From Citricoccus zhacaiensis (GTDB lineage: Bacteria > Actinomycetota > Actinomycetes > Actinomycetales > Micrococcaceae), in the NCBI RefSeq assembly GCF_014645315.1, contig NZ_BMLQ01000002.1:124001-188000 (forward strand): a DNA stretch of 64,000 bases. Direction: 5' to 3'. Made by a program: the position numbers and the translations under genes. Under the pieces are notes generated by a model, which made no database searches, was not told the origin of the DNA, and was given only the letters and a program-made list of their open reading frames with translations. Positions 18,088-36,330 of this stretch are shown here, piece after piece. The stretch's first letter is position 1. Each line of letters begins with the position of its first letter.

Positions 18088-19470
18088 CTAGTGCGAGGAC
18101 ATCTCGCGGGCTGCCGGCACGGGGCGCTGATCGAACACCGTGCACCCGACCTCCTGCTCGGCCTGGTTGTGGATGGAGAGGTCGATTCCGGAGCGGTCCC
18201 GGACGAGGGTCACGGCGATCAGCGCCACCACGCACATCCCGATGAGGTAGACGGCGATGGCCCCGGAGGATCCGGTGGCGTCCAGAAGGGCCTGGGCGAT
18301 CATGGGCGCGAACGCCCCGCCGAGGATGGCGCCGATCGCATAGGAGATGGACACCCCGGAGAACCGGATGGAGGCGGGGAAAAGCTCCGAGTAGAGGGCG
18401 GCCTGCGGCCCGTAGGTCAGCCCGGTGCCGATGCAGATGATCCCCAGGCCCAGGTAGAGGTTCGCCAGGCTGCCGGTGTCGATGAGCAGGAACAGGGGCC
18501 AGACCGACAGGATCAGCCAGACATAGCCGAGCTGATACGTCCGCTTCCGCCCGATGTAGTCCGAGAGGATTCCGGCCCCGAGGGTGGAGAGCAACCACAC
18601 CGCGGCGGCGAACGTCATGGCGATCAACACGTCGGTGTTGTCCAGCCCGATGTCGTCTGAGGTGGCGTAGGAGGGGATGAACCCGCCGGTGGACATGTAG
18701 CCCACCGAGTTGTTGCCCACGAAGATCAGCGAGGCCAGGAGCACCAGGTGCCAGTACTTGCGGAACAGCTCCACGATCGGGACACTCGTCTGCTCCTTCT
18801 TCTCGGCCATCTCCTTGAACACCGGGGACTCGTCCACGGCCATCCGGACGAAGTAGCCGACCCCGATCAGCACCACGGAGGCGATGAAGGGAATCCGCCA
18901 GCCCCACTCAAGGAACTGCTCCCCAGGGGAGATCACGCCGGTCATCAGGGCGGTCACCCCGGTGGCCAGCAACAGACCCAAGGGCACGCCGAGCTGGGGC
19001 ATGGAGCCTGCCAGCCCGCGGCGCTTCGCCGGGGCGTGTTCCACGGCCATCAGCGCCGCGCCACCCCACTCGCCCCCGGCGGAGACGCCCTGGAGCACGC
19101 GGAGCAGGATCAGCAGGATCGGGGCGATGACCCCGGCCGACTCATACGTGGGCAACAGGCCGATCAGGGTGGTGGCCCCGCCCATCATGATGAGCGTGAC
19201 CACCAGGATGACGCGGCGGCCCAGTTTGTCCCCGTAGTGGCCCGCCAGGAACGCCCCGAGCGGGCGGAACAGGAAGGAGATGCCCACCGACGCGAAGGAC
19301 AGCAGCAGGCCGATCGACTCCCCCGCCGGCTCGAAGAACAGCTGGGAGAAGACCAGGCCGGCCATCGTGGCGTAGATGAAGAAGTCATACCACTCCACGG
19401 TGGTGCCGACCAGGGTGGCGGCAGCGACGCGGCGTTGGTTGGCCCGGTCAGAGTGTCGGGTTTCAGTCAT
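18088..19470 (-). CDS. MFS transporter, MHS family, for an aromatic acid
   Basis: A 460-aa, 12-TM MHS protein with EWYDFFIY in TM1, GHYGDKLGRR in loop 2-3, RVLQGVSAGGEWGGA in TM4 and SDYIGRKRT in loop 8-9. It is the last gene of the homoprotocatechuate operon, 57 nt after the flavin hydroxylase, so hydroxyphenylacetate or hydroxybenzoate uptake is likely. Start ATG 19470 with CGAGG upstream. Confidence 0.87.
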   Translation of the reverse strand: MTETRHSDRANQRRVAAATLVGTTVEWYDFFIYATMAGLVFSQLFFEPAGESIGLLLSFASVGISFLFRPLGAFLAGHYGDKLGRRVILVVTLIMMGGATTLIGLLPTYESAGVIAPILLILLRVLQGVSAGGEWGGAALMAVEHAPAKRRGLAGSMPQLGVPLGLLLATGVTALMTGVISPGEQFLEWGWRIPFIASVVLIGVGYFVRMAVDESPVFKEMAEKKEQTSVPIVELFRKYWHLVLLASLIFVGNNSVGYMSTGGFIPSYATSDDIGLDNTDVLIAMTFAAAVWLLSTLGAGILSDYIGRKRTYQLGYVWLILSVWPLFLLIDTGSLANLYLGLGIICIGTGLTYGPQAALYSELFPASIRFSGVSISYAIGAILGGAFAPMIAQALLDATGSSGAIAVYLIGMCVVALIAVTLVRDRSGIDLSIHNQAEQEVGCTVFDQRPVPAAREMSSH

Positions 19471-19527: not shown

Positions 19528-21423
19528 TCACGGGGTGAAGATCGGCTCGAAGAAGTCCGTGAGCTCTTCCGTGGCGCTCAGCGGCAGCACGGCGGCCACG
19601 TACTGGTCCGGCCGGACCACCACGATCACGCCGTCGCGGCTCAGGCCGCGCGCCTCGAAGAAGTCGTCCTCCGGGTCCACGCCCCAGACCTTGTTGAGGT
19701 TGGAGACCTGGAACCGGCCGACCTGCGGACGGAAGATCGAGGGCGTCTTCATCAGCTCCACCTCCTCGTGGGGCTGCTGGTAGACCACCTGGACGTCGAA
19801 CAGCGCGTCCAGGTCACGGCCCGCGGGGGTGAAGCGACGGACCGGGGAGTCCTCGGAGTCCAGCCACTGGGCCCACGCCCGCAGCGCCGAGTCCTGCGCG
19901 GAGGACACCGCGGCGTCGGCGAAGGCATAGATCCGCCAGCGCCCGTCCGCCGTGTGCTGATGACCGAAGCGGTGCGGAGTCGTGTCGGAGACGCGCTTGG
20001 CCGGGTGCGCCTTGAAACGCTTGCCGAGCGGGAACCCGCTGGCCAGCGCCTGGTGGGAGGCATCCGCCACGAGCATTCCGGCCGGGTACTCCGTCATGAA
20101 GCCCGCCGGGAACTCCGCGGTCTTCTGGTAGAAGTCCTCCAGCGCGGTGGCGCTCTCCAGTTCCTCCGGCTTGGCGGCCATCATCGAGGACCACTCACGG
20201 TCGAAGTCGATGAGCTTCTGGGCCACCGGCTGTCGCTCGGCCGAGTAGGTGGACAGCAGCGATTCCGGGCTGAGCCCGGTCAGCACGTGGCCCAGCTTCC
20301 AGCCCAGGTTGAACGCGTCCTGGATGGAGACGTTCATGCCCTGACCGGCCTTCGCCGAGTGGGTGTGGCAGGCGTCGCCGGCGATGAACACGTGGGGGTG
20401 ACGCTGGCCGACGTCCTCGGCCAGGACGTCGTCGAACCGGTCGGTCACCCGGTGACCCACCTCGTAGACGCTCCACCACGCCACGTCCTTCACGTCCACC
20501 GTGTAGGGCGAGACGATCTGGTTGGCCTGGGCGATGATCGACTCAATCGGGGTCTTGCGCACGGCGCCGGCATCGTTCTGGTCCACCTCACCCAGGTCCA
20601 CGTACATCCGGAACAGGAAGCCGCCCTCGCGCGGGATGTGCAGGATCGAGCCGTGCTCGGACTGGATGGCGCACTTGGTGCGGATGTCCGGGAAGTCGGT
20701 CTCCGCGATGACGTCCATGACGCCCCAGGCGTGGTAGGACACGGCACCCACGTGCTGCGCGCCGATGTCCCGGCGGACCTTCGAGTGCGCTCCGTCTCCG
20801 CCGACGACGTACTTGGTGCGGATGGTCCGGGTCTCGCCCGGGTTCACGCCGCCGTCGGGCGTCTCACCGGTGCGCTTCAGCGTGACGGTCACCGGGTACT
20901 CGCCCTCGCCCATCTCAAGGGAGACGAACTCCCAGCCCCAGTAGGGCTCGGTGCGGGACGGCGCGTGACGGGCGAACCGGGCGAAGTAGTCCAGCACCCG
21001 GGCCTGGTTGACGATCAGGTGCGGGAACTCGCTGACCCCGGCCGGGTCGTCCACGGCCCGCGCGGTGCGGATGATGTGGCCGCTCTCCTGGGGGTCCGGC
21101 TTCCAGAAGTTCATCTCCGTCAGGTGGTACGCCTCCGCGACGATCTCCTCGGCGAACCCGAAGGCCTGGAACGTCTCGACGCTCCGGGCCTGGATGCCGT
21201 CGGCCTGGCCGATCGCCAGCCGCTGCGGGCGGCGGTCGACGAGGCAGGTCATGACCTCGGGGAAGCTGGCCAGCTGGGCGGTGGCGGTCATGCCGGCCGG
21301 TCCTGCGCCGACCACCAGGACGTCCATGGTCTCGGGCAGCTCGGGGGAACGGTCCACGCCCACGCCGGCGGCGGGCTGCACGCGCGGGTCCCCGGACACG
21401 TACCCGTTGTGGTGAAACAGCAT
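19528..21423 (-). CDS. FAD-dependent aromatic hydroxylase (3-hydroxybenzoate 4-monooxygenase / phenol hydroxylase type)
   Basis: A 631-aa group A flavoprotein hydroxylase. FAD motif GAGPAG is at 39-44, the DG motif reads GGDGAHSKVRRDIG, and the GD motif is AGDACHTHSAKAGQGMN. A C-terminal thioredoxin-like domain (about 450-631) is typical of the phenol hydroxylase/MobA subgroup, whose members are about 640 aa. The reaction is NAD(P)H- and O2-dependent ring hydroxylation. MobA makes protocatechuate, but every enzyme downstream in this operon is for homoprotocatechuate. The substrate may therefore be a hydroxyphenylacetate. AGGAG precedes ATG 21423. Confidence 0.85.
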   Translation of the reverse strand: MLFHHNGYVSGDPRVQPAAGVGVDRSPELPETMDVLVVGAGPAGMTATAQLASFPEVMTCLVDRRPQRLAIGQADGIQARSVETFQAFGFAEEIVAEAYHLTEMNFWKPDPQESGHIIRTARAVDDPAGVSEFPHLIVNQARVLDYFARFARHAPSRTEPYWGWEFVSLEMGEGEYPVTVTLKRTGETPDGGVNPGETRTIRTKYVVGGDGAHSKVRRDIGAQHVGAVSYHAWGVMDVIAETDFPDIRTKCAIQSEHGSILHIPREGGFLFRMYVDLGEVDQNDAGAVRKTPIESIIAQANQIVSPYTVDVKDVAWWSVYEVGHRVTDRFDDVLAEDVGQRHPHVFIAGDACHTHSAKAGQGMNVSIQDAFNLGWKLGHVLTGLSPESLLSTYSAERQPVAQKLIDFDREWSSMMAAKPEELESATALEDFYQKTAEFPAGFMTEYPAGMLVADASHQALASGFPLGKRFKAHPAKRVSDTTPHRFGHQHTADGRWRIYAFADAAVSSAQDSALRAWAQWLDSEDSPVRRFTPAGRDLDALFDVQVVYQQPHEEVELMKTPSIFRPQVGRFQVSNLNKVWGVDPEDDFFEARGLSRDGVIVVVRPDQYVAAVLPLSATEELTDFFEPIFTP

Positions 21424-21452: not shown

Positions 21453-22265
21453 CTATTCGGTGGTGCCGGTGGCACACCAGGTGTCGGCGAGGGCCTCGGT
21501 GGCGCGGGCCAACAGGGCGACGTCGGCCGCCACGTTGACGAAATCGGCGCCGGCGGCCAGGTAGTCCCGGGCCTGGTCCGGGGCGAAGGCGTTGACGCCG
21601 ACGAACCGGCCGGCCTCCCGGGCCTGCCCGATCACGGCCTTCACCGCGGCGACGACGTCCGGGTGGTTCTGCTGCCCGATCAGTCCCATGGAGGCGGCCA
21701 GGTCGGAGGGACCGACGAAGATCCCGTCCACTCCGTCCACGGCCGCGATCTGCCCGGCGGCGGCGACGGCGGCCGCGGACTCGATCTGCACCACCAGGGT
21801 CACCAGGTCCCCGGCACGGGCCAGGTAGTCCGGGACCCGGTTCCAGCGCGCCGAGCGCGCCAGGGCGGACCCGACCCCGCGCATCCCGCGCGGTGGGTAG
21901 TGCATCGCGCGGACGGCCCGCTCGGCGTCCTCGGCGCTGTCCACCATCGGGATGACGAGGGACTGCGCACCCAGGTCCAGGTACTGCTTGACCAGCACCG
22001 GGTCCAGGGCGGGCACCCGGACCACGGGGATGACCGGGTATCCGGCCATGGCCCGCAGCTGGGACTGGATGGTCTCCAGGCCCAACGGGGCGTGCTCGCC
22101 GTCGACCAACAGGAAGTCCATGCCTGCGGAGGCGCAGATCTCGGTGACGGACGGGTCGGCCGAGTTGATGAACATCCCGGCCGGGGCCCGGCCGTCCCGG
22201 TCGGCGCGCGCCTGCGCGCTGAACAGGTTCTTGAGGCTGGGCTGTGGTTCTAGGCGAATCGGCAT
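21453..22265 (-). CDS. hpaI: 4-hydroxy-2-oxoheptanedioate aldolase
   Basis: A 270-aa HpcH/HpaI class II aldolase. Seen are the metal/substrate motifs LVDGEHAPL, the RGMRGVG loop, QIES (metal Glu) and FVGPSDLAASMG (metal Asp). It cleaves 4-hydroxy-2-oxoheptanedioate to pyruvate and succinic semialdehyde, the last step of homoprotocatechuate breakdown. Its ATG (22265) lies inside the 3' end of hpaH, a 16-nt overlap, so the two are coupled. No succinate-semialdehyde dehydrogenase is in the cluster. Confidence 0.92.
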   Translation of the reverse strand: MPIRLEPQPSLKNLFSAQARADRDGRAPAGMFINSADPSVTEICASAGMDFLLVDGEHAPLGLETIQSQLRAMAGYPVIPVVRVPALDPVLVKQYLDLGAQSLVIPMVDSAEDAERAVRAMHYPPRGMRGVGSALARSARWNRVPDYLARAGDLVTLVVQIESAAAVAAAGQIAAVDGVDGIFVGPSDLAASMGLIGQQNHPDVVAAVKAVIGQAREAGRFVGVNAFAPDQARDYLAAGADFVNVAADVALLARATEALADTWCATGTTE

Positions 22266-23035
22266 GTCACGGTCCCCAGGTTCCCGTAGTCGGCGTAGAC
22301 GGTGTCCCCGGCATAGACCCACATGGGCCGGGTGAAGGAGCCGGCCAGGATGATCTCCCCGGCCTCCAGCACGTCCCCGTGCCCCGCGATCCGGTTCGCC
22401 AGCCAGTGCACCCCGTTGGCCGGGTGGTTGAGCACCCCGGCGGCCACGCCCGTCTCGATGATCTCCTGGTTGCGGGACAGCATCCCGGCCACCCAGCGCA
22501 GGTCCACGGCGTCGGGCGCCACCGGGCGGCCGCCGAACACCATGGCGCCCATCGCGGCGTTGTCACTGATGGTGTCGGTGATCGTGCGCCCCTCCATCTC
22601 GATCCGGGAGTCCAGCACCTCCAGCGCCGGCACCACATACTCCGTGGCGCGCAGGACGTCGAACAGCGTCACCCCCGGGCCAGCCAGGGTGTCCTTCAGC
22701 ACGAAGGCCAGCTCCATCTCGACCCTCGGATGCGTGTAACGGGACCACTCGAAGACGTGGCCGGACTCCATCACCATGTCGTCGAAGATCACCCCGTAGT
22801 CCGGTTCATCGATCCCGGTGGCGTCCTGCATGGCCTTGGAGGTCAGGCCGATCTTGTGGCCGACCTTCTTCCGGCCGGCATCGATCTGCCGCTGGGCCCA
22901 GATCCCCTGGACCGCGTAGGAGTCCTCGATCCCCATGTCCGGGTACCGCGCGGTGAGCAGGGGAACCGGCGTCCGGTCCTCACCGGCCCGGTGCAGCTCA
23001 TCGGCGATCGCCGTGTGCGTTGAGTGGTCAAGCAT
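22250..23035 (-). CDS. hpaH: 2-oxo-hept-4-ene-1,7-dioate hydratase
   Basis: A 261-aa HpaH/MhpD-family hydratase with the conserved [20 protein letters not shown] and EMELAFVL segments (metal-binding Glu pair). It adds water to 2-oxohept-4-ene-dioate to give the substrate of HpaI. ATG 23035 was chosen because the family begins here; the longer reading upstream overlaps hpaD and has no counterpart. Confidence 0.92.
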
Positions 23036-23054: not shown

Positions 23055-24221
23055 CTACAGCTGGTGTCCGAGTTTGAAGCCCTTGGCGGCCTCGCCCTGG
23101 TAGGTGCCGGCGGCGTCGCCCTCACGGGTGTAGGAGAACCCGTCGGCACCGATCGTCACCGCCATCTCGCTGTTGTCGGTGCGCTCGATGACCGGCTGCG
23201 GGTTGCCGTCCAGGTCGAGCACGAGCGAGCCGTCGGTGTACCAGGACGGGACCACGGGGTTGCCCCACCAGTCACGACGCTGGTTGTCGTGCACGTCCCA
23301 CGTGACGACGGGGTTGTCCGGGTCGCCGGTGTAGTAGTCCTGCGTGTAGACCTCGACGCGGTGCCCGTCCGGGTCGCGCAGGTACAGGTAGAACGCGTTG
23401 CTGACGCCGTGGCGGCCGGGACCGCGTTCGATCGAGTCGGAACGGCGGAGTGCGCCGAGCTTGTCGCAGATCGCGAGGATGTTGTGCTTCTCGTGCGTCG
23501 CGAAGCACACGTGGTGCATGCGCGGGCCGTCGCCGCCGGTCATGGCGGTGTCGTGCACGGTGGGCTTGCGACGCATCCACGCGGCGTACACCGTGCCCTC
23601 GTCGTCCTGGATGTCCTCCGTGACGCGGAAGCCGAGGTCCTGCATGTACTTCACCGCGCGTGGCACGTCGGGCGTGATCTGGTTGAAGTGGTCCAGACGC
23701 ACGAGCTCACCCGGGATGTGCAGGTCGTAGCGCCACGACATGCGCTCGACGTGCTCGCTCTGGTGGAAGAACTCGTACGGGAAGCCCAGCGGGTCCTCCA
23801 CGCGGACGGAGTCGCCGATGCCCTTGGTGAAGCCCTCCTTGCGGCGCTCCACGCGGCAGCCGAGCTCCTCGTAGAACGCGACCGCCTTGTCCAGGTCCTC
23901 GGGTGCGCGCACCCGGTACGAGAACGCCCGCACCGCGGCCAGCTCGCCCTTGCGCAGGATGAGGTTGTGGTGGATGAACTCCTCTGTGGAGCGGAGGTAG
24001 ATGACCTCGTCGTCCTCCTCGGTGACGTACAGCCCGAGGATGTCGACGTAGAACTGGCGGGACGCCGCCAGGTCGGTCACGATGAGCTCCATGTAGGCGC
24101 AGCGCAGGATGTCCGGGGCCGGGGCCTGCGGGGTCGGGACGGGATTGTCGGAGACGATGGGGGCTTCCTGGGAGACGTAGAAGCCCGAGGACGTCATCGT
24201 CCGGTCGTCGAGGTGGGTCAT
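23055..24221 (-). CDS. hpaD: 3,4-dihydroxyphenylacetate (homoprotocatechuate) 2,3-dioxygenase
   Basis: A 388-aa type I extradiol dioxygenase with two vicinal-oxygen-chelate modules. The metal ligands H178, H237 and E290 are spaced 59 and 53 residues apart, exactly as His155-His214-Glu267 of the Brevibacterium fuscum enzyme. This is the subgroup that includes the manganese enzyme MndD of Arthrobacter, so Fe(II) or Mn(II) cannot be told apart by eye. It cleaves homoprotocatechuate to 5-carboxymethyl-2-hydroxymuconate semialdehyde. About 20 residues precede the usual N-terminus. Confidence 0.95.
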   Translation of the reverse strand: MTHLDDRTMTSSGFYVSQEAPIVSDNPVPTPQAPAPDILRCAYMELIVTDLAASRQFYVDILGLYVTEEDDEVIYLRSTEEFIHHNLILRKGELAAVRAFSYRVRAPEDLDKAVAFYEELGCRVERRKEGFTKGIGDSVRVEDPLGFPYEFFHQSEHVERMSWRYDLHIPGELVRLDHFNQITPDVPRAVKYMQDLGFRVTEDIQDDEGTVYAAWMRRKPTVHDTAMTGGDGPRMHHVCFATHEKHNILAICDKLGALRRSDSIERGPGRHGVSNAFYLYLRDPDGHRVEVYTQDYYTGDPDNPVVTWDVHDNQRRDWWGNPVVPSWYTDGSLVLDLDGNPQPVIERTDNSEMAVTIGADGFSYTREGDAAGTYQGEAAKGFKLGHQL

Positions 24222-24306: not shown

Positions 24307-25845
24307 TCACGCCTGGAGGTCCTCGGCGGCCTGCTCCTGCCGGCCGAAGACGGGGTTGTGGACCTCGCCGAGGTTGATGTGCACGGCCTGCTGGTCGGTG
24401 TAGAAGTCGATCGAGCGGTAGCCGCCCTCGTGCCCCAGTCCGGAGGCCTTCACGCCGCCGAAGGGGGTGCGGAGGTCACGGACGTTGTTGGAGTTCAGCC
24501 AGACCATGCCCGCCTCGACGTTCTGGGCGAAGTTGTGGGAGCGCTTGAGGTCGTTCGTCCAGATGTATGCGGCCAGGCCGTACTTGGTGTTGTTGGCCAG
24601 TTCGAGGGCCTCCTCGTCCGTGTCGAACGGAGTGATGGCCACCACCGGGCCGAAGATCTCCTCCTGGAAGATCCGGGCGTCCGGGGACACGTCGGCGAAC
24701 ACGGTCGGCTGGATGAAGTTGCCCTCGGGGAACTCCTCTGGGCGCCCGCCGCCGGCGGTCAGCCGGGCCTCGGACTTGCCGATCTCCACATAGGACATGA
24801 CCTTCTCGAAGTGCTCGGGGTGGACCAGGGCGCCGACCTCGGTGGTCTCCTCGTGCGGCAGGCCGACCTTCACGCGCTTCGCCTGGGCCGAGTAGCGCTC
24901 CACGAACTCGTCGTAGATGCCCCGCTGGACCAGGATGCGGGAGCCAGCGGTGCAGCGTTCGCCGTTGAGGGAGAAGACACCGAAGACGGTGGCGTCGATC
25001 GCCGCGTCAAGGTCCGCGTCCTCGAAGACCACGGCCGGGGACTTGCCGCCGAGTTCCATGGAGAGGCCCTTGAGGTAGGGGGCCGCGTTGCCGAAGATGA
25101 TCTGCCCGGTGCGGGATTCGCCGGTGAAGGAGATCAGCGGCACGTCCGGGTGCTTGACCAGAGAGTCCCCGGCGAAGCCCTCCTCGCCATAGCCGTGGAC
25201 CATGTTGAACACACCGGCCGGCAGACCGGCCTCCTCGAAGATGCCCGGCCAGAGGGAGGCGGACAGCGGGGTGAACTCCGCCGGCTTGAGCACCACGGTG
25301 TTCCCGGTGGCGATGGCCGGGCCGAGCTTCCAGGACTCGAGCATGAACGGGGTGTTCCACGGGGTGATGAGCCCGGCCACGCCGATCGGCTTGCGGTTGA
25401 CGTAGTTCGCCTGGCGGCCGGGAACCTTGAAGGCATCGTCGTGCTGGGCCACGATCAGGTCCGCGAAGAAGCGGAAGTTCTCGGCAGCGCGACGGGCCTG
25501 GCCCAGGGCCTGGGAGATCGGCAGCCCGGTGTCGTAGCACTCCATCTCGGCCAGTTCCTGACCGCGGGTCTCCACGATGTCCGCGATCTTGTGCAGCACC
25601 CTGGAGCGCTCGCGCGGGAGCATGGTCGGCCACGGACCGTTCTCGAAGGCGTCCTTGGCGGCGGCCACGGCGGCATCGATGTCCGCGACCTTGCCGGAGG
25701 CGGCCTGCAGGTAGGGCTTGTTGGTGACCGGGTTCAGCACGTCGAACGTGTCCCCGTCGATGGAGTCGACGTGCTGTCCGCCGATGTAGTGCTGGATGGT
25801 CGAAGGCAGGTTCGCGGGAACGAAGTCGTTGCTCTGGGCAGTCAT
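24307..25845 (-). CDS. hpaE: 5-carboxymethyl-2-hydroxymuconate semialdehyde dehydrogenase
   Basis: A 512-aa aldehyde dehydrogenase with PWNTPFM (cofactor pocket), catalytic E in LELGGKSP and nucleophile C in NGERCTAGS. Position directly upstream of hpaD, with all other homoprotocatechuate enzymes around it, identifies the substrate as the ring-cleavage semialdehyde, oxidised with NAD+. ATG 25845 has AGAGGA 6 nt upstream; the longer reading upstream runs into the regulator gene. Confidence 0.93.
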   Translation of the reverse strand: MTAQSNDFVPANLPSTIQHYIGGQHVDSIDGDTFDVLNPVTNKPYLQAASGKVADIDAAVAAAKDAFENGPWPTMLPRERSRVLHKIADIVETRGQELAEMECYDTGLPISQALGQARRAAENFRFFADLIVAQHDDAFKVPGRQANYVNRKPIGVAGLITPWNTPFMLESWKLGPAIATGNTVVLKPAEFTPLSASLWPGIFEEAGLPAGVFNMVHGYGEEGFAGDSLVKHPDVPLISFTGESRTGQIIFGNAAPYLKGLSMELGGKSPAVVFEDADLDAAIDATVFGVFSLNGERCTAGSRILVQRGIYDEFVERYSAQAKRVKVGLPHEETTEVGALVHPEHFEKVMSYVEIGKSEARLTAGGGRPEEFPEGNFIQPTVFADVSPDARIFQEEIFGPVVAITPFDTDEEALELANNTKYGLAAYIWTNDLKRSHNFAQNVEAGMVWLNSNNVRDLRTPFGGVKASGLGHEGGYRSIDFYTDQQAVHINLGEVHNPVFGRQEQAAEDLQA

Positions 25846-25862: not shown

Positions 25863-26558
25863 TCAGACAGATGGTGAGTCGGCGTCGCCGTTGCTGGCGG
25901 CGACGTGGTCCAGGTAGGCGTTCAGGGTGTTGAGTCGGTGGTGACGGGCGGCCTGTTCCACCGCGCCGAACTCGGCACCGGCGGCGATCAGGTCCAGCAG
26001 GTGGTCGTGTTCGGCCACCGAGCTGTCGGCACGGTGGGGGACGTAGGCGAAGGTCGAGGAACGCAGCGCCGCCAGGCGTGCCCAGCCCCGGTGGACGAGG
26101 TCCAGGATGTGGCTGTTCTGGTGGTGCTCGAACAGCACGGAGTGGAATTCCTTGTTCAGACGGGTGAACTCCACGGCGTTGAAGTCCGTCAGGAGCCCTC
26201 GCATCCGCTCGTTGATGGCCCGCGCCCTCTCGATCTCCTCCGCGGTGACCAAAGGAGCGCACAGTGCCGTGGAGTAGCCCTCCACCAGCGCGAGCGTCTC
26301 CATGGTGTCGTGGTAGATCTCCGGGTCGATCCCGATCACGGTCGCCCCGACGTTACGGGTGTAGGCCACCACCGACTCCGACTGCAGGCGCCGGATGGCC
26401 TCCCGCACGGGGACCACGGACATCTCGAGTTCGGCGGCGAGCTGGGCGAGCACCAGCCGGGCCCCCGGGGCATAGCGGCCGGCATTGATGCCGGACAGGA
26501 TCCGCTGGTAGGCCAGGTCCGCCTTGGACGAGGCCGCGTCGGCGGCGATCGTGGTCAT
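25863..26558 (-). CDS. GntR-family regulator (FadR/FCD type)
   Basis: A 231-aa GntR protein: winged helix at about 15-80 (with LAAELEMSVVPVREAIRRLQ) and an all-helical FCD ligand domain at about 90-220 with the metal/ligand His residues in NKEFHSVLF and ARHHRLN. The start ATG 26558 overlaps the stop of the FAH-RraA gene by 4 nt. It is embedded in the operon it most likely represses, and a perfect FCD-type operator (28244-28255) lies in front of the first gene. Confidence 0.92.
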   Translation of the reverse strand: MTTIAADAASSKADLAYQRILSGINAGRYAPGARLVLAQLAAELEMSVVPVREAIRRLQSESVVAYTRNVGATVIGIDPEIYHDTMETLALVEGYSTALCAPLVTAEEIERARAINERMRGLLTDFNAVEFTRLNKEFHSVLFEHHQNSHILDLVHRGWARLAALRSSTFAYVPHRADSSVAEHDHLLDLIAAGAEFGAVEQAARHHRLNTLNAYLDHVAASNGDADSPSV

Positions 26559-28171
26559 CGCTCGCCCCGGTTCGGGCGGGACGCGCGGTACTGCTCGTAC
26601 TTCGCCTTCCACTCGGCGTTCGGCGGGAACAGCCCGTCGACCGGGTGGCCCGCCTCGACCTGCTCGTAGACCCAGGCATCCTGCTGTTCCTGCTCCCAGG
26701 CATCCGCGATGACCTCCTCCAGCAGGGCGGGGGGAACCACCACCACACCGTCGTCGTCGCCGATGACGATGTCTCCCGGCTGGATGGTGGTACCACCGCA
26801 GGCGATCGTGCCGCCCACCTCCCAGGGGATGTGTCGCCGACCGAGCACGGCCGGGTGGTTGCCGTTGGAGTAGACCTGGAGGCCCACCTCGGCGACGGCC
26901 GCGGAATCCCGCACGCCGCCGTCGGTCACCACCGCGGCCGCGCCGCGGACCTTGGCGCGCAGCGCCAGGACGTCACCGAGCGTGCCGGTGCCCTTCTCCC
27001 CGCGGGCCTCCATGACCACCACGTCGTCCGGCTGGACCGAGTCCATGGCGCGCTTCTGGGCGTTGAACCCGCCACCGAAGGCCTTGAACAGGTCCTCGCG
27101 GTTGGGCACGTAGCGCAGGGTCTTGGCGTAGCCGAGGATGCGCCGGCCGGGGTGGGTGGGCCGGACGCCGTCGATGGTCGCGTTGTCGATGCCGCGCTTG
27201 CGCAGCTGGGCGGTGATGGTGGCGACGGCCGTCTCGTTGATCCTCGACTTCAACTCCTCCGTGAGCAGGCCGCGGTCCGCCTCCGGGGTGGAGGGCACGT
27301 AGTGCAGGTTCCCGACGCCGGCCCCCTCACCGCCGCCGGCCGTCTCACCGGAGGCGGCGGCCGGTTGCGGCGCCAGGCCTGCGGCCTCGCGGGACCCCCA
27401 GGCCTCCTCCCGCTGGGTATCGTCCACCTGCGGGCCGTGCCCGTAGGCGGCCATCGGGATCTCCGAGGCGGCGACGTGGGTGACCAACCGTCCCGTGCTC
27501 GGTGCGCCGGGGGCGTCCGGGGCGTCGACCTCGACCTCGACGACGTCGCCGGGCTGGGCCACGGAGGAGCCGGCCGGGGTTCCGGTCAGGATGACGTCGC
27601 CCGCCTCCAGGGTCATCAGCTGGGAGAGGTCGGCGATCAGTTGGCCGAAGGGGAACACGAGTCCTTCGGTGGTGTCGTTTTGAGTCAGCTCGCCGTTGAC
27701 CCAGGTGCGCACGCGGAGCTTCGTGGGATCCAGGTCGGCGGCCGGGATGACGTTCGGACCGAGCGGCGTGTACCCGTCACCGGATTTGTTCTTGAGGTTG
27801 GAGCCCTTGTCCGCATGGCGCAGGTCGTAGAGGCCCCAGTCGTTGGCAGCGGTGATCCCGGAGACCTTGGACCAGCCTTGTTCCGGGGATACTCGGCGGC
27901 AGGTCTCACCGATGACGAGGGCGATCTCCCCCTCGTAGGCCAGCAGCTCGGTGCCGGCCGGGCGTTCGATGGCCTCTCCGGTGCGGGCGATCGAGGTGCC
28001 GGCCTTGAGGAAATACCCGGGGAACTTCGGGGACCGGCCGCGCTGGGCGATCCTCGAGGGGTAGTTCAGGTGCAGGGCCACCACCTTGCCGGGGCGGTTC
28101 TGGCGGGCCGTGAAGTCCACGGGGCCGGCCGCCTGTGCTGTCGATCGGCCCGCTGCGGCATCCTCGGTCAT
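26555..28171 (-). CDS. Fusion: fumarylacetoacetate-hydrolase-family domain (HpaG-like) + RraA/HMG-aldolase-like domain
   Basis: A 538-aa two-domain protein. Residues about 20-240 are an FAH-fold domain with metal ligands E80, E82 and D111, as in HpaG isomerase/decarboxylases. A Gly/Ala-rich linker follows (about 255-290). Residues about 295-525 are an RraA-like domain with GD at 399-400 and the R421-D422 pair, the positions used for substrate and metal in 4-hydroxy-4-methyl-2-oxoglutarate aldolases. Classical HpaG is two FAH domains in tandem (isomerase and decarboxylase). Here the second is replaced by an RraA domain, a fold that can decarboxylate 2-oxo acids such as oxaloacetate. First gene of the operon; AGGAG precedes ATG 28171. 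Confidence 0.9.
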   Translation of the reverse strand: MTEDAAAGRSTAQAAGPVDFTARQNRPGKVVALHLNYPSRIAQRGRSPKFPGYFLKAGTSIARTGEAIERPAGTELLAYEGEIALVIGETCRRVSPEQGWSKVSGITAANDWGLYDLRHADKGSNLKNKSGDGYTPLGPNVIPAADLDPTKLRVRTWVNGELTQNDTTEGLVFPFGQLIADLSQLMTLEAGDVILTGTPAGSSVAQPGDVVEVEVDAPDAPGAPSTGRLVTHVAASEIPMAAYGHGPQVDDTQREEAWGSREAAGLAPQPAAASGETAGGGEGAGVGNLHYVPSTPEADRGLLTEELKSRINETAVATITAQLRKRGIDNATIDGVRPTHPGRRILGYAKTLRYVPNREDLFKAFGGGFNAQKRAMDSVQPDDVVVMEARGEKGTGTLGDVLALRAKVRGAAAVVTDGGVRDSAAVAEVGLQVYSNGNHPAVLGRRHIPWEVGGTIACGGTTIQPGDIVIGDDDGVVVVPPALLEEVIADAWEQEQQDAWVYEQVEAGHPVDGLFPPNAEWKAKYEQYRASRPNRGER

Positions 28172-30184: not shown

Positions 30185-31666
30185 TCAGAGGGCTCCGGTT
30201 GCCAACAGCGGCACCATCAGCGAGGTCACGAAGAGCACCAGGGTGCCGCCGATGCGGTTGGTGATGGCCGCGAACGGCATCAGGTGCATGCGCTCGGAGG
30301 CGCTGAGCACCGAGACATCACCGGAGCCGCCCGTGTCCGCCATGACGAGTCCCGGAACGATGGCGACCTCCACGAAGTTGAACTTCACCAGCCACCCGAT
30401 GATCCCCGCCGACAGGCCCGCCACCAGCACGCAGAGGAACGTCAGCGCGATGAAGGTCGGGTCGGCCAACGAGACCAGTACTTCGTCGATCTTGATATAC
30501 GTCAGGGAGACGCCCACGAGCAGCGCCGGGACCAGCACCGCGTTGATGAGATCACCCCAATCGGTGGCAGACTCCTCCAGGTCCTTGGGCAGCCAGCCGG
30601 TCAGCTTGAGGACCACCATGATGATGATGGCCCAGGCGTAGGGGTGGAGGAAGGTCAGGTAGGCACCCATCAGCTCGCCGACCACGAAGATGACGGCGGC
30701 GAACAGCAGCCCCTTGCCGAGCGTGATGTAGGTGGACTGCCCACCCTTCTTCGGCATCGAGAGATCACGACGATCACCCTTGACCCGGATCAGGTCACCG
30801 TTGCCGGAGAAGCCGGCGAACAGGGTCGGCTTGTTCTTGCCCAGACCGTTGAGCAGGCCGGCGAAGATGATGCAGAAGACGTTGGCCAGAACCACGGCAG
30901 ACATGAGGTCACCCATGAACGCCGAGGCGTCCTGCCCCGTGCGGGCGGCGTACATCTCGGACATCGGCAGGGCACCCAACCCCAGACCGCCGGCCATGAT
31001 GGGCGCTGCGACCAGCAGCATGCCCTCGATGAAGCCGTTGCCGAACATCATCGACACGAGGCCGATGACCAGGAAGGTCACGATGATGGTGCCCAACACC
31101 GGCACCGCGAAGCGCGGCCCGGCCTTGACCAGCAGCGCGCGGGGCATACCGAGGATGGATCCGGCGATGATGGCCATGACGAAGAAGTCCAGGAAGCCCT
31201 GCTCGTCGATGAAGGTGCTGGCCACGGTCACCAGTGGCTCCGGAACCAGGCCGAAGTACACCAAGGTGGCCGGGGCGAACGTGCACAGGATGGTCGGCAG
31301 GCCGTAGTCGCGGACCACGGGCACCCGGTTGCCGAGCCAGATGAACAGCCCGCCCAGCAGAATGGTCACGGCGAATCCGGACAACATCGACGCCGGAAGC
31401 GTCTCGGTCACCGCGGCCACGACCACCACGGCCACCATGATCAGGTACAGCGGGATCGGCACGCTCGCAATCCGCTTCCATCCGGCCCCGGGGTGGTGCA
31501 CGCCGCCGCGTCCGTCGACGGACTTCTCGACGGGTCGGGCCAAGACCGACTGCGTGCCGGCGGTGATCTCCTGCTCGAGCGCCCCGCGGAGGTCGTCATC
31601 CTCCGCCCGGGACGTGGCGGCCGCACGGCGGCCGCCCTGGGTGTCGTTGGTGGACATGGTGGACAT
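30185..31666 (-). CDS. 2-hydroxycarboxylate transporter (2HCT/CitP-CitS family)
   Basis: A 493-aa secondary transporter with about 11 TM segments. Both diagnostic re-entrant-loop motifs are present: GGLGLGALPMSE in the first half and GGSGDVSVLSAS in the second, the inverted-repeat architecture of the family. Members move citrate, malate, citramalate and related 2-hydroxy acids with Na+ or H+. It is the third gene after a class III CoA transferase and an HMG-CoA-lyase-like enzyme, which favours citramalate or a similar acid. A second ATG lies three codons in. Confidence 0.92.
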   Translation of the reverse strand: MSTMSTNDTQGGRRAAATSRAEDDDLRGALEQEITAGTQSVLARPVEKSVDGRGGVHHPGAGWKRIASVPIPLYLIMVAVVVVAAVTETLPASMLSGFAVTILLGGLFIWLGNRVPVVRDYGLPTILCTFAPATLVYFGLVPEPLVTVASTFIDEQGFLDFFVMAIIAGSILGMPRALLVKAGPRFAVPVLGTIIVTFLVIGLVSMMFGNGFIEGMLLVAAPIMAGGLGLGALPMSEMYAARTGQDASAFMGDLMSAVVLANVFCIIFAGLLNGLGKNKPTLFAGFSGNGDLIRVKGDRRDLSMPKKGGQSTYITLGKGLLFAAVIFVVGELMGAYLTFLHPYAWAIIIMVVLKLTGWLPKDLEESATDWGDLINAVLVPALLVGVSLTYIKIDEVLVSLADPTFIALTFLCVLVAGLSAGIIGWLVKFNFVEVAIVPGLVMADTGGSGDVSVLSASERMHLMPFAAITNRIGGTLVLFVTSLMVPLLATGAL

Positions 31667-31747
31667 GGTGGTCTCTTTCCTGGAGAGGGGTCGTTCAGCC
31701 CGGGTCGCGATGGAGAGCCGGGCAACGTTCGTGGTCGATGGGGAGGC

Positions 31748-32641
31748 TCAGGCGTTCGAAGCCTCTGGCAGGCGCGGGGCAGTGCTGACCAGATCCCGCG
31801 CCAAGGAGGTGGCCACGGCGAGGAGGTCTTCGTCGATACCGGTCCGGTGGCCCTGCTCGTGCAGGTGCCGGACCAGGTCGCCCGTGGAGAGGTTGCCGGC
31901 TGCCCCGGGGGCGAAGGGGCAACCCCCGTAGCCGCCGAGGGCGGCGTCGAAGCGGGTGATGCCGCGTTCGATGGCCGCGTCCACGGTGGCCAGCGCCTGG
32001 CCGTGGGCGTTGTGCAGATGCAAGTAGTAGGTCAGGTTCGGCTCGCCGGCGAGCACGTGGTCCAGGCTGGCGACCAGCTCCGCGGTGGGCGTGGTGCCGA
32101 GCGTGTCCGCCAGGCCGATGTCCGTGACACCCATGTCCTTGAAGGACCGGACCATCCACAGCAGGCGCTCCGGATCGATGCGCCCCTCGAACGGGCAGGT
32201 GAACGCTGTGGAGATCCCGGCGAAGAAGTCGACACCGGGGCATGCCGCCACCTGGTCACCCAGATCGTGCAGGGCCTGCTCGACGGTGCGCCCGGCGTTG
32301 GCGCTCGAGTGCGCCTGGCTGGCGGAGGCGACGATCTGGATGTGGCCGGCTCCGGCCGCCACGGCCCGCTCCACTCCCCGGCCGTTGAGCGCCAGGACAG
32401 TGAGTTCCGCCGTCGTGCTGACCTGCAGGGACTGGACCACCTCCTCGGCTCCGGCCATCTGTGGCACCCGCCGGGGATGGACGAAGGAGGCGACCTCCAT
32501 GCGCCGCACTCCGGCTGCGGCGATGGCCTCGCCGATCTCCACGCGCTGGGCGGGAGCGAGGGTCACGGCCTCGTCTTGAAGGCCGTCCCGCAGGAAGACG
32601 TCCGTGACCTGGATGCCCGCCCCCGGGAGAGCCGGAGTCAT
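31748..32641 (-). CDS. HMG-CoA-lyase-like (DRE-TIM) lyase, possibly (R)-citramalyl-CoA lyase
   Basis: A 297-aa DRE-TIM metallolyase. Catalytic residues of HMG-CoA lyase are all in place: R18-D19 (LRDGLQ), metal ligands H208 and H210 (LHLHN), C241 in the mobile loop (GGYGGCPFAPG) and N250. The family cleaves HMG-CoA, but also (R)-citramalyl-CoA to acetyl-CoA and pyruvate, as in Chloroflexus. The CoA transferase gene overlaps it by 4 nt and a 2-hydroxycarboxylate transporter follows, so citramalyl-CoA is a reasonable substrate; HMG-CoA remains possible. Confidence 0.85.
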   Translation of the reverse strand: MTPALPGAGIQVTDVFLRDGLQDEAVTLAPAQRVEIGEAIAAAGVRRMEVASFVHPRRVPQMAGAEEVVQSLQVSTTAELTVLALNGRGVERAVAAGAGHIQIVASASQAHSSANAGRTVEQALHDLGDQVAACPGVDFFAGISTAFTCPFEGRIDPERLLWMVRSFKDMGVTDIGLADTLGTTPTAELVASLDHVLAGEPNLTYYLHLHNAHGQALATVDAAIERGITRFDAALGGYGGCPFAPGAAGNLSTGDLVRHLHEQGHRTGIDEDLLAVATSLARDLVSTAPRLPEASNA

Positions 32642-33885
32642 GAGCGCACCGCCTCGGCACCGGCAGCGGAGGCTGCCGCGATCTGGTCGCCGTCGAAGCC
32701 GGCGATCTCCCGCAGCACCTCCTCGGTGTGCTCACCGAGATTCGGCCCGACCCAGGCCACGCGGCCTTCGTGGCCGGGAATCTTGGGGACCACCCCGGGG
32801 AAGCGGATCAACTCCGGTTCGTCCTCGACGACGACCTCATGGGTCTCGATCATGCCGCGGGCGATGTAGTGCTCGTCCTGGGCGATCGACGGCGCGTCGT
32901 AGACCGGGCCGGCCGGGACGCCCTCCTCGCTGAGGACCTCCAAGACCTCCTGGAGCGAACGGCCCTCGGTCCACGCGGAGATGATGCCGTTGAGCTCCTC
33001 CTCGCGGGCGCCTCGGGCCTCGGTGGTGGTCAGGGACTCGTCCTCGGCGAGGTCCGGCCGACCCACGGCACGCATCAGGCGCTTGAACACCGAGTTGGAG
33101 TTGCCGCCGATGACCACTTCCAGCCCGTCACCGGTGGCATACGACCCCGTCGGCACCACGCCGGGTAGGCGGCCGCCGGTGCGCTGGCGGACCATGCCGT
33201 AGGCGTCATAGTCCGGGACGAGGGACTCCAGGAGGCTGAACACTCCCTCGTACAGCGCCACGTCCACGACCTGCTGGCCGCGGGTGTCCCCTCCGCGCGC
33301 CTTCTGCACCATGAGCATCAGGGCGCCGATGACACCGTAGAGGCCGGCGACGGTGTCTCCCAGGGAGGCGGCGGCGCGGCCTGCTGGCCGGTCCGGCTCG
33401 CCGGTGATGTAGCGCAGCCCGGCGAAGGACTCCGCCGAGCTGCCGAACCCGGCACGGTCGTTGTACGGCCCGGTCTGCCCGTAGCCGGAGATGCGGACCA
33501 TGACGAGGTCGGGGTTCTGGGCCATCAGCTCGTCTGGCCCCAGCCCCCACTTCTCCAGGGTGCCCGGGCGGAAGTTCTCGATGACGACGTCGGCGCCCGC
33601 CGCCATCTTCAGCACAGCCTCACGGCCGAGTTCGCTGCGCAGGTCCAGGGCGACGGACTTCTTGTTGCGGCCCATGGTGCGGAACAGCATGGACGTGTCC
33701 CCACGGGTCTTGCGCCAGTCGCGCAGCTCGTCGCCGCCGAGGGGCCGCTCCACCTTGATGACCTCGGCGCCGAAGTCGCCGAAGATGCGGGCGGCGAAGG
33801 GGGCGGCGATGAAGCTGCCCAGCTCGAGGACGCGGATGCCCTGCAGCGGGAGGGTGTTCTCTCCGGTGTCAATGCTCTCGGTCAC
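32638..33885 (-). CDS. Class III (CaiB/BaiF) CoA transferase
   Basis: A 415-aa family III CoA transferase with the typical N-terminal GIRVLELGSFIAAPFAARI and the catalytic Asp D177 in SLGDTVAG (the Asp169 position of formyl-CoA transferase). It moves CoA from a donor such as succinyl-CoA to a carboxylic acid. With the lyase next door, citramalate is a likely acceptor. The start is GTG 33885, because AGGAG sits 7 nt upstream; the TTG at 33900 is part of that ribosome site. Its stop overlaps the lyase ATG (ATGA). Confidence 0.9.
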   Translation of the reverse strand: MTESIDTGENTLPLQGIRVLELGSFIAAPFAARIFGDFGAEVIKVERPLGGDELRDWRKTRGDTSMLFRTMGRNKKSVALDLRSELGREAVLKMAAGADVVIENFRPGTLEKWGLGPDELMAQNPDLVMVRISGYGQTGPYNDRAGFGSSAESFAGLRYITGEPDRPAGRAAASLGDTVAGLYGVIGALMLMVQKARGGDTRGQQVVDVALYEGVFSLLESLVPDYDAYGMVRQRTGGRLPGVVPTGSYATGDGLEVVIGGNSNSVFKRLMRAVGRPDLAEDESLTTTEARGAREEELNGIISAWTEGRSLQEVLEVLSEEGVPAGPVYDAPSIAQDEHYIARGMIETHEVVVEDEPELIRFPGVVPKIPGHEGRVAWVGPNLGEHTEEVLREIAGFDGDQIAAASAAGAEAVRS

Positions 33886-33901
33886 GGGGATTCTCCTCAA
33901 T

Positions 33902-33922
33902 GCTTCCCATTGGCTGGGAAGC
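33902..33922. promoter_or_regulatory. IclR-type operator A (CoA-transferase operon)
   Basis: GCTTCCCA-TTGGC-TGGGAAGC, a perfect 8-bp inverted repeat 17 nt upstream of the start codon and downstream of a possible -10 (TAAATA, minus strand). It shares the TTCCCA-N5-TGGGAA core with 36220-36238. The position suits a repressor. Confidence 0.75.
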
Positions 33923-33954
33923 AGTTCTTATTTAGCGGTAGGACGGTAGCAGGA

Positions 33955-33970
33955 CGTGATGCGCATCACA
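33955..33970. promoter_or_regulatory. CRP/GlxR-like box A
   Basis: CGTGA-TGCGCA-TCACA, one mismatch to TGTGA-N6-TCACA, overlapping the stop codon of the upstream dehydrogenase gene. The gap from the operator core to this box is 34 nt, identical to the second copy of this promoter. Confidence 0.68.
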
Positions 33971-34976
33971 AGAGGACATCTTCCGAGGCGGCGGGCTCGA
34001 GGTTCGCCGGTCGCTTGACCTGAGTGACGACGCCGGTCGGGACGTCGCCCCGCAGCACGGCCTCGATGTTCTGCCACACGGTGGCGATCCGGCGCTGGAC
34101 GTTCTCCCAGCCGACTCCCGCCATGTGCGGCGTGCACACCACCTGCTCCATCTCCAGCAGCTCGCTCGCAGCATCCAGGGGCTCCCGGTTATAGACATCG
34201 AGCCCGGCCCCGGCGATGCGTCCCTCCCGCAGAGACTCGATGAGCGCACGCTCGTCCACGACCTCACCGCGACCGACGTTCACGAGGACGCCTGTCTTCT
34301 TCATGAGGGCGAGCTCGTCCTCACCGATCAGCCTCTCGGACCCGGCGTTCAACGGGACACTGACGCAGACGATGTCAGAGGTCCGCATGAGCTCGTCCAG
34401 GGAGACGGGCCGGGCCGGGACGAGCTCGGAGACGGTCAGCGGGATCTCCGCGTTGTCATAGAAGATCACCTCGGCACCGAAACCGTGATGGACCACCTTG
34501 CCGACCCATCGGCCGATATTGCCCAGCCCGACGATGCCGACCGTCTTGCCGTACAGCTCGGAGTAAGACGTCTCGTCCAGGTCCTCGCGCCACTTCCCGT
34601 CCCGCATCAACTGCATCGAGGCAGGGATCCGCCGCAGCAGTGTCAGGACCAGGGTGACCGCATGCTCCGCGACGGAGATGGAGTGTGTCTTCATCTGCGC
34701 CACCGGTATGCCCAGGTCATCGAGAACCCCGAGGGAGAGCTGGCCATAGCCGGAGCTCATGTACTGGATGAACTTCGCCTTCGAGGCGGCCCGGAAGACC
34801 GCCTCAGGGACCTCGACGCCCGAGATCAGGAAATCAGCGTCCGCGGCCTCGCGGCAGAGGTCCTCGACGTCCGTCCCCGGCGGCATGACGGTCACCCTGA
34901 AACCTTCCGGTGCGGCCGCCACCAGACGGTCGATGTAGTCCCTGAGGGGATTGATGAACAGGACCTTGTACGTCAC
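33966..34976 (-). CDS. D-2-hydroxyacid dehydrogenase (NAD-dependent)
   Basis: A 336-aa D-isomer-specific 2-hydroxyacid dehydrogenase. The NAD motif GLGNIG and the catalytic triad are present: R in NVGRGEVV, E in DVYNREPL and H in TPHMAGVG. It reduces a 2-oxo acid or oxidises a D-2-hydroxy acid; the exact substrate is unknown. It lies 110 nt after the isopropylmalate-dehydrogenase-like gene and is probably cotranscribed. The GTG at 34976 has GAAAGG 9 nt upstream; the earlier in-frame ATG is a low-complexity extension. Confidence 0.86.
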   Translation of the reverse strand: MTYKVLFINPLRDYIDRLVAAAPEGFRVTVMPPGTDVEDLCREAADADFLISGVEVPEAVFRAASKAKFIQYMSSGYGQLSLGVLDDLGIPVAQMKTHSISVAEHAVTLVLTLLRRIPASMQLMRDGKWREDLDETSYSELYGKTVGIVGLGNIGRWVGKVVHHGFGAEVIFYDNAEIPLTVSELVPARPVSLDELMRTSDIVCVSVPLNAGSERLIGEDELALMKKTGVLVNVGRGEVVDERALIESLREGRIAGAGLDVYNREPLDAASELLEMEQVVCTPHMAGVGWENVQRRIATVWQNIEAVLRGDVPTGVVTQVKRPANLEPAASEDVLL

Positions 34977-35086
34977 GGGTGTGCGCCTTTCGCAGGGCGG
35001 CCCCGGCCGGTGGCGTGGGGACCTGGTGAGGAGGGGAGAGAGGGAAGAAGAGAAGGAAGAAGGGGTGGCGGCCGGACGGCACCGGG

Positions 35087-36202
35087 TCATCGGCCAGCCG
35101 CGGCGACGTGTTCCCGCCGTCCGGAGTCCACCTGTGGCGGAAGCGCGCTGATGACTGCGTCCGTCACCTCCCGGGTGCCAGCGGAGCCACCCAGGTCCCG
35201 CGCCCGGGGGCCGATCGCCAGCGTCGATTCGACGGCGCCCTGGATGGCGTGGGCGATGCGGGTGGCGAGGTCGTCACCGCGGCGCTCCCCCAACCACTCC
35301 AGCATCATCGCGGCCGAGAGGATCATCGCTGTGGGATTGGCGATACCCTGGCCCGCGATGTCGGGGGCACTGCCATGAGACGGCTGGAAGACGCCGTGCG
35401 TCAGACTGACGTCGGCCGACGGGGCGACGCCGAGGCCGCCCACGAGGCCGGCTGCGACCTCGGAGACGATGTCGCCGAAGATGTTCTCCGAGACGATGAC
35501 GTCGTAGCGCCCCGGATCGGTGACCATGTACATCGATCCCGCGTCGATGTAGTACTTGGCGCTGCCGATATCGGCGTTCCGTGCGGCGACCTCGTCGAAC
35601 ACCTTCTCCAGCAGGACATTGCTGCGCAGGGCGTTGGACTTGTGCAGGAGCGTCACATGACCTGGGGTCCCCCGCTTGCGGCGTGCCCGCGCCTGCGAGA
35701 ACGCCACGTCGAAGAGCTTCTCGCTGGTGGCCCGCGTGATCGTCATGCGATCGCTCGCGCTCTCGTCGCTGGGCTCGTGTTCATCGGCCAGTCCCGCGAA
35801 CATCCCCTCCGAGGTCTCCCGGATCACCAGCATGTCGACCTTCTCCGCCTTGAGCGGGCCGTCGACGCCCGGGAAGAGCCGGACCGGCCGAAGGCTCGAG
35901 AAGAGGCCGTAGTGGGCTCGCATCTCCACCTGGGCCCCCAGTTCCAGGCCCTCCGGACCGCGCACGTCAGGAAGACCCATGGCACCGAACAGCACGGCGT
36001 CCCGCATGCCGATCTCGTCCATATCGGCAGCGGTGATCTTCCGTCCGGTACGGCGGTACAGGTCAGCGCTGAAGTCATACGTGGTGTAGTTCAGCGTCAG
36101 CCCGTAGCGCGTCTCGCACTCCGCCAGGACCGCCTGCGCGGCCTCGACGACCTCGGGCCCGATGCCGTCTCCGGGAATGACGGCGATGTCGTATTCAGTC
36201 AT
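35087..36202 (-). CDS. Isocitrate/isopropylmalate dehydrogenase family enzyme (D-malate/tartrate dehydrogenase-like)
   Basis: A 371-aa beta-decarboxylating dehydrogenase. It has the GDGIGPEV start, the substrate-loop RETSEGMFAG, the catalytic Lys in LHKSNALR, metal Asp in VSENIFGDIVSEVAAGLVG and the HGSAPDIAGQGIANP signature. The RETSEG-type loop and the neighbourhood (2-hydroxycarboxylate transporter, IclR) suggest D-malate, tartrate or 3-methylmalate rather than isopropylmalate; leuB needs no such partners. It is driven by the promoter with the second IclR/CRP site pair. Confidence 0.85.
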   Translation of the reverse strand: MTEYDIAVIPGDGIGPEVVEAAQAVLAECETRYGLTLNYTTYDFSADLYRRTGRKITAADMDEIGMRDAVLFGAMGLPDVRGPEGLELGAQVEMRAHYGLFSSLRPVRLFPGVDGPLKAEKVDMLVIRETSEGMFAGLADEHEPSDESASDRMTITRATSEKLFDVAFSQARARRKRGTPGHVTLLHKSNALRSNVLLEKVFDEVAARNADIGSAKYYIDAGSMYMVTDPGRYDVIVSENIFGDIVSEVAAGLVGGLGVAPSADVSLTHGVFQPSHGSAPDIAGQGIANPTAMILSAAMMLEWLGERRGDDLATRIAHAIQGAVESTLAIGPRARDLGGSAGTREVTDAVISALPPQVDSGRREHVAAAGR

Positions 36203-36219
36203 GTCTCTCCCACCAAAAC

Positions 36220-36238: not shown

Positions 36239-36271
36239 TCGTTGCTATTTAGCGGGAAGACCATAGCAAGG

Positions 36272-36287: not shown

Positions 36288-36330
36288 AGGGGGTGTTGAG
36301 AGAATTGCGCACTGCCCCGCGCACTCGGTG

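Follow-up and report, generated by a model that had tools for sequence, protein, structure and literature searches.

An FAH-RraA fusion protein in the HpaG slot of actinobacterial homoprotocatechuate operons is a candidate replacement for HpaF and HpaG

Which protein converts 5-carboxymethyl-2-hydroxymuconate (CHM), which HpaE makes, into the 2-oxo-heptene-dioate on which HpaH acts, when the known enzymes for these steps are not found? This question is raised by a 64,000-nucleotide stretch of the Citricoccus zhacaiensis genome (contig NZ_BMLQ01000002.1, positions 124,001 to 188,000, hereafter the window), in which a homoprotocatechuate operon includes a gene encoding a fumarylacetoacetate hydrolase (FAH) domain fused to an RraA-like domain. 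On sequence grounds we tentatively favour an answer in which this one protein would cover the whole route from CHM to the HpaH substrate in place of both HpaF and HpaG, the RraA half acting as decarboxylase of the keto-acid OPET and the FAH half as tautomerase. The gene and its parts are as follows.

26555..28171, minus strand: FAH-RraA fusion gene, 538 amino acids (aa), ATG to stop in one frame
27482..28087, minus strand: FAH domain, residues 29-230, with metal ligands E80, E82 and D111, lysine K129, and R40 at the position of the lid His
27272..27481, minus strand: linker, residues 231-300, its first part partly conserved, residues 272-294 of low model confidence
26576..27271, minus strand: RraA domain and C-terminal tail, residues 301-532, with D400, R421, D422, N370-A-Q-K373 and H447

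An earlier note, made from the sequence of the window alone, had described a single 538-aa frame, and this was recovered at 28171-26555, on the minus strand, which the note had not given. Pfam searches bore out both proposed domains, with FAA_hydrolase matching residues 29-230 (E 4.2e-49) and RraA-like matching residues 317-478 (E 1.1e-30), and the residues singled out in each, E80, E82 and D111 in the first and R421-D422 in the second, were correct. The proposed Gly/Ala linker stands in part: residues 272-294 have pLDDT below 50 in an AlphaFold model, but several columns at about 244-259 are conserved and residues 251-258 are predicted to be helical. This model, built from 48 aligned fusions, has a mean pLDDT of 87.4 and a pTM of 0.55, and therefore gives two confident domains without fixing the mutual placement of the halves. 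Foldseek matched the first domain to the FAH proteins 8gsr, 4pfz, 2dfu, 1i7o and FAHD1, and the second to RraAS2 (5x15_C, TM 0.89 by target length). Assignment of the locus to homoprotocatechuate degradation also held, since the HpaE and HpaD equivalog models exceed their cut-offs in this operon (640.2 against 638.35 and 434.2 against 321.4, respectively) and the fusion occupies the slot of HpaG.

Residue conservation was read from the alignment of 48 fusions. Besides the fusion of the window it contains 44 of the 79 from named loci in the survey described below, and those of loci L035, L038 and L041, with L087 left out. In the FAH half E80, E82, D111 and K129 are invariant (48/48), as are D400, R421, D422, N370-A-Q-K373 and H447 in the RraA half, where the D400-X20-R421-D422 spacing is that of the D-X20-R-D motif of RraA-fold class II aldolases/decarboxylases. 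The lid of the FAH half is altered. At the position of the lid His all 48 fusions have Arg (R40) and none His, and the residue corresponding to the lid Glu, at position 43, is Gln in 43 fusions but Glu in the other five. Both lid residues are kept in E. coli HpaG-C and in two further FAH proteins of the C. zhacaiensis genome, and E. coli HpaG-N has neither the lid His/Glu nor the two Glu ligands. Position 118 is Arg in 45 fusions and Lys in three; the same column holds Gln in the three ordinary FAH proteins compared and Leu in E. coli HpaG-C. A Gln has been proposed to steer decarboxylation in FAHD1-type enzymes (PMC8398924), and by our own alignment this would be the Gln of that column. With Leu in HpaG-C, the column is therefore not decisive for decarboxylation. 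In the RraA half position 498, the extrapolated site of the metal Glu of the aldolase, is D in 28 fusions and E in 20, and pairwise alignment with 3noj puts G144, T145 and K147 of the aldolase opposite V442, L443 and R445. Invariant columns number 41 in the FAH half by our count, and 42 in the RraA half, so constraint on the two seems equal and neither looks like a passenger.

The proteins that would ordinarily act between HpaE and HpaH were then sought by profile search. The C. zhacaiensis genome (99.98% complete) gave no match at E 1 to PF02962, the CHMI domain of HpaF, and none to the tautomerase family PF01361, so that no candidate for an HpaF elsewhere in the genome came forward. Nor was there an HpaG N-half over cut-off, and hence none of the two-domain HpaG whose presence elsewhere in the genome the earlier note had named as evidence against its proposal. 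The other FAH matches of the genome were rejected as HpaG: they are a 267-aa FAH protein and one of about 300 aa beside a short RraA, both on contig C1, and a protein on contig C10 that is closest to HpaH among the window proteins, and none matches over the HpaG-N cut-off. The search for PF02962 was extended to 49 other genomes, namely those of 41 of the 80 named loci of the survey and eight more, two of the 49 having standalone RraA only. It was found in none of the 47 other fusion genomes (that of L087 included) and not in G109, a standalone-RraA genome. The single match among the 49 was in Streptomyces sp. A1277 (G434), whose RraA locus L134 is without the fusion; this is the sole whole-genome positive control of the search, and it was rejected as a pathway gene, the 16.9-kb stretch around it being without any hpa homologue above 60 bits. 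E. coli HpaF itself had no match at E 1e-6 in the 95 loci defined below. The HpaG N-half model exceeded its cut-off in 0 of 50 genomes. The C-half model did so in two of 14 control genomes, but in none of the 296 genomes of an apparently actinobacterial class (drawn from the genome of L087, G413, and taken as actinobacterial since its G454 equals G023 in contig and coordinates). In E. coli BL21, the sole gammaproteobacterial control for co-occurrence, hpaF and hpaG are both in one operon. Because HpaF, the HpaG N-half and PF01361 were not found in its own genome, the fusion is the best local candidate for conversion of CHM to OPET, decarboxylation of OPET and isomerisation of HHDD, unless the first is uncatalysed. 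The gap at HpaF was missed by the earlier note, and because of it a tautomerase role has to be placed besides that of decarboxylase.

To determine the distribution of the fusion, a profile of its RraA half was run against genome contigs, and the best 80 of 283 relatives were kept. As the earlier note had suggested, domain order and neighbours were surveyed in these: 79 of the best 80 are fused, most beside HpaE and HpaD, and the one that is not is L134. The closest named relative of the RraA half among the 80 is that of Micrococcus terreus (86%). With L035-L043 and six further loci these make a set of 95, in which near-duplicates are possible, L042, L043 and L134 are without the fusion, and several loci are cut by contig ends. 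At fixed score limits HpaE and HpaD were each present in 88 of the 95, GntR in 91, HpaH in 70 and HpaI in 67. Homoprotocatechuate operons of actinobacteria thus contain the fusion as a constant member. A gene of the DHDPS family is present in 12 of the 95 (L041, L043, L077, L094, L103, L117, L123, L132, L183, L250, L251 and L252), and in none of these 12 was HpaH or HpaI found; a further 16 of the 95 lack HpaH, HpaI or both and have no DHDPS-family gene, nine of these being shorter than 18 kb and seven not. Hydratase-aldolases of the DHDPS family exist (NahE type), and the protein encoded here may be a single hydratase-aldolase in place of two enzymes, in which case the fusion would need to supply the keto form. 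L087 (3450-4934, labelled Stenotrophomonas) was considered and rejected; its first approximately 165 residues are those of a different FAH protein with His and Glu. It is probably a chimeric, misassigned contig carrying an actinobacterial-type fusion, and it is counted among the 79 fusions, the 95 loci and the 47 fusion genomes.

In the division of labour that we tentatively prefer, the metal-bearing FAH half would shift enol/keto double bonds, converting CHM to OPET and perhaps HHDD to OHED as well. Removal of CO2 from OPET would fall to the RraA half, which would bind the 2-oxo acid through a metal site at D400/R421/D422. All these reactions, and their division between the halves, we infer. 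An RraA-fold HMG/CHA aldolase has oxaloacetate decarboxylase activity (PMC5065237), FlDet, also of RraA fold, dehydrates and decarboxylates a 2-keto-3-deoxy sugar acid (PMC8563752), and there are FAH-type enzymes with oxaloacetate tautomerase activity (PMC10825186). The RraA half is assigned as decarboxylase because RraA is retained at two loci that do not have the FAH half of the fusion and because the lid His of the FAH half is lost, and the FAH half is then taken as tautomerase because the RraA half is taken as decarboxylase. The first of the two loci, L043 (G109; 17 kb of a 42-kb contig), has a standalone RraA gene between genes of the dienelactone-hydrolase and DHDPS families, followed by an HpaD over cut-off (349 against 321.4), and no FAH match in its 17 kb. 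In the second, L134:9288-13033, homologues of GntR, HpaH and HpaI come after a standalone RraA of 56% identity; its 20 kb gave no homologue of HpaE or of HpaD scoring above 60 bits. In both, RraA lies next to the genes for the hydratase/aldolase end of the pathway, which suggests that a needed step can be carried out by RraA in the absence of the FAH half of the fusion, decarboxylation being the natural candidate for that step.

A number of observations weigh against this assignment. There are only two such loci. G109 carries a relative of the FAH half on another contig (L049); in L134 a different FAH gene, which keeps His and Glu, lies about 5 kb downstream, and the A1277 genome has no HpaD over cut-off. 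The FAH half keeps its metal triad and is closer to HpaG-C, the half assigned as decarboxylase, than to HpaG-N (40% against 32% identity). A role in handling water and protons has been proposed for the lid His-Glu pair, and the text examined does not demonstrate a need for it in decarboxylation (PMC8398924). The OPET decarboxylase of A. baumannii is related to the metal-bearing C-half of HpcE (PMC12718150), and by that relationship the FAH half would therefore be the decarboxylase. As regards replacement of HpaF, conversion of CHM to OPET proceeds slowly without enzyme (PMC12718150), and PF01361 is present in 10 of 20 fusion genomes, that of C. zhacaiensis counted. In the hpaGLEDHI cluster of Corynebacterium aurimucosum, which has the same gene order, hpaF is assigned as being 'elsewhere' (PMC2830990). 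A 4-oxalocrotonate tautomerase is described for the homoprotocatechuate cluster of Rhodococcus ruber Chol-4 (PMC6498646), and the fusion therefore need not serve every actinobacterial homoprotocatechuate pathway. The proposal of the earlier note that the RraA half had taken over one HpaG step thus fits the position of the gene in the HpaG slot, while the assignment of decarboxylation to it, which had been thought the most plausible, is favoured by the two standalone loci and the lost lid His and opposed by the intact FAH metal site and the kinship of the FAH half with the HpaG decarboxylase half.

These opposing observations lead to the reverse division, which we consider possible if somewhat doubtful: OPET would be decarboxylated in a metal-dependent manner by the FAH half, as by HpaG-C, with the RraA half as a tautomerase standing in for HpaF and/or the HpaG N-half. 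Invariance of the metal ligands and K129 and the closer relationship to HpaG-C are as expected of such an enzyme, the A. baumannii decarboxylase shares 69% identity with the C-half of HpcE, which bears the metal (PMC12718150), an RraA-fold HMG/CHA aldolase exchanges the methyl protons of pyruvate (PMC5065237), and HpaF was not found in this or the 47 other fusion genomes. However, R40 replaces the lid His in every fusion aligned, L043 and L134 retain RraA although the fusion's FAH half is missing there, and no RraA-fold tautomerase is named in the portions of the literature examined. We think it unlikely that the FAH half does both HpaG steps with the RraA half as a structural partner only, CHM passing to OPET uncatalysed or by an unrelated enzyme. 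The analogy here is with A. baumannii, in which HHDDI boosts OPETD, the complex of OPETD with its FAH partner being 60-fold more active than OPETD alone, and the slow spontaneous isomerisation of CHM was reported in the same work (PMC12718150); but D400, R421 and D422 are invariant in all 48 fusions, invariant columns are no fewer in the RraA half than in the FAH half, and L043 and L134 have RraA on its own. It is very improbable that the RraA half has no step in the pathway and acts as a general pyruvate-aldolase domain or one like the RNase regulators, for although RraAS2 (5x15) is its best solved relative by sequence, 79 of the best 80 of 283 loci are fused, most of them beside HpaE and HpaD, and an HpaI homologue (67/95) or a DHDPS-family gene (12/95) is usually there already.

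The FAH-RraA architecture is not new to databases, being that of NF009399/PRK12764. The NCBIfam model NF009399/PRK12764.1 matches residues 19-533 of the fusion with 828.3 bits against a cut-off of 444, so the match is beyond chance, and it exceeds its cut-off in eight of 396 genomes of the phylum, including that of C. zhacaiensis. The family has both domains, but its name, 'fumarylacetoacetate hydrolase family protein', gives no reaction, pathway or residue roles. The fusion carries that name in the plasmid annotation of Rhodococcus sp. NBC_00297 and is a 'putative Dimethylmenaquinone methyltransferase' in that of Paenarthrobacter aurescens TC1, and among the titles and abstract openings listed in literature searches none concerns an FAH-RraA fusion. 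The finding is real and the operon reading right, for a family known, and without a function, in the databases searched.

The fusion shares with HpaG/HpcE of E. coli (1gtt, 1i7o) the operon slot and, in the FAH half, a similar fold, but HpaG has two FAH domains whereas the fusion has one and an RraA domain, its lid His is replaced by Arg, and both HpaG domain models, TIGR02303 and TIGR02305, fall far below their cut-offs (141.6 against 276.4 and 103.6 against 228.65). The step of HpaF must be covered in fusion genomes, by an enzyme or not, and PF02962 is not among the Pfam matches of the fusion, which is without a CHMI domain. With HMG/CHA aldolase (3noj) the RraA half shares the fold, the active-site R-D and the D-X20-R-D spacing; it differs in the residues opposite G144, T145 and K147, and the ligK_PcmE equivalog scores 75.3 against a cut-off of 304.5. 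RraAS2 of Streptomyces coelicolor (5x15) is alike in fold, and PRK08245/NF006093 matches the RraA half over cut-off (228.6 against 208), but RraAS2 is a 270-aa RraA chain without an FAH domain; the title of 5x15 names it as a member of the RNase ES inhibitor family, and NF006093 is a 'hypothetical protein' family.

The remaining genes of the operon follow the fusion on the same strand, in the order fusion, GntR, HpaE, HpaD, HpaH, HpaI-like, FAD monooxygenase and MFS transporter.

25863..26558, minus strand: GntR/FCD regulator, its likely start overlapping the fusion stop by 4 bases
24307..25845, minus strand: HpaE, by gene order between GntR/FCD and HpaD
23055..24221, minus strand: HpaD, homoprotocatechuate 2,3-dioxygenase, start at 24221 or 24197
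22250..23035, minus strand: HpaH, 2-oxohept-ene-dioate hydratase, 0.6 bit below the curated cut-off
21453..22265, minus strand: HpaI-like pyruvate aldolase, below the curated cut-off
19528..21423, minus strand: phenol-hydroxylase-type FAD monooxygenase
18088..19470, minus strand: MFS transporter

The HpaH equivalog scores 350.9 against 351.5 and the HpaI equivalog, well below its cut-off, 288.5 against 368.8, and each is still the best NCBIfam match of its protein. HpaD scores 673.6 bits to 1q0c and 623.4 to 1f1r, solved homoprotocatechuate 2,3-dioxygenases presumably from Brevibacterium fuscum and Arthrobacter globiformis, respectively, and is thus a close relative of crystallised enzymes with many PDB entries. 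The FAD monooxygenase would make the dihydroxy ring acid. The same operon adjoins a gene for a succinate-semialdehyde dehydrogenase in both Rhodococcus NBC_00297 and P. aurescens TC1, together with one for a primary-amine oxidase in the former and one for a phenylacetaldehyde dehydrogenase in the latter, and for this reason substrates of the tyramine/tyrosine type are likely. A meta pathway for homoprotocatechuate has been predicted in Arthrobacter sp. Rue61a, a strain that uses 4-hydroxyphenylacetate, homoprotocatechuate and tyrosine for growth (PMC3534580).

Many soil actinobacteria thus seem to use one fused protein of two unrelated folds for the middle steps in the breakdown of tyrosine-derived ring compounds, steps for which E. 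coli has two other proteins; in the fusion bacteria the known enzymes for the HpaF and HpaG steps that follow HpaD were not found. It is conceivable, if rather uncertain, that an RraA-fold domain is here a dedicated decarboxylase of the vinylogous keto-acid OPET, with the FAH half a tautomerase lacking the His-Glu pair and HpaF and HpaG both replaced, so that in DHDPS-type operons the fusion and a hydratase-aldolase would run CHM to pyruvate and succinic semialdehyde. If so, proteins with only the two database names quoted above would gain a function, and a new reaction may join the RraA fold.

Relatives of the separate halves occur in other surroundings. Standalone FAH genes with the Ser-Arg lid of the fusion are present in L042, L046, L047, L048 and L049, most near aldehyde dehydrogenase or HpaD-like genes, and related FAH genes in L181 and L182 lie beside aldehyde dehydrogenases and an extradiol-type dioxygenase. 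RraA genes of Rhizobium, Haematobacter and an Arthrobacter plasmid were set aside as uninformative, their surroundings being different. Near the RraA gene of L134 are an Amidohydro_2 gene, a DUF3500 protein and a gene that we read as ABC transporter-like. The order VOC dioxygenase (27-28% to HpaD), RraA-like, deacetylase-like is found in L257, L258, L259 and L260, recurring in four genomes from two other classes of the phylum, and presumably represents a protocatechuate/gallate 4,5-cleavage cluster. In the C. zhacaiensis genome a second FAH gene (L052:9363-10738; C1 at about 778,862-780,237) is followed directly by a short RraA gene, in two separate frames; no hpa gene except the FAH was matched in that 16.8-kb stretch. 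Within the window, a separate gene cluster at positions 30185-38952 on the minus strand encodes a 2-hydroxycarboxylate transporter and a protein resembling HMG-CoA lyase. We read further frames in it as coding for a CoA-transferase, a TPP enzyme, two dehydrogenases and an IclR regulator, and the cluster may serve a hydroxy-acid pathway.

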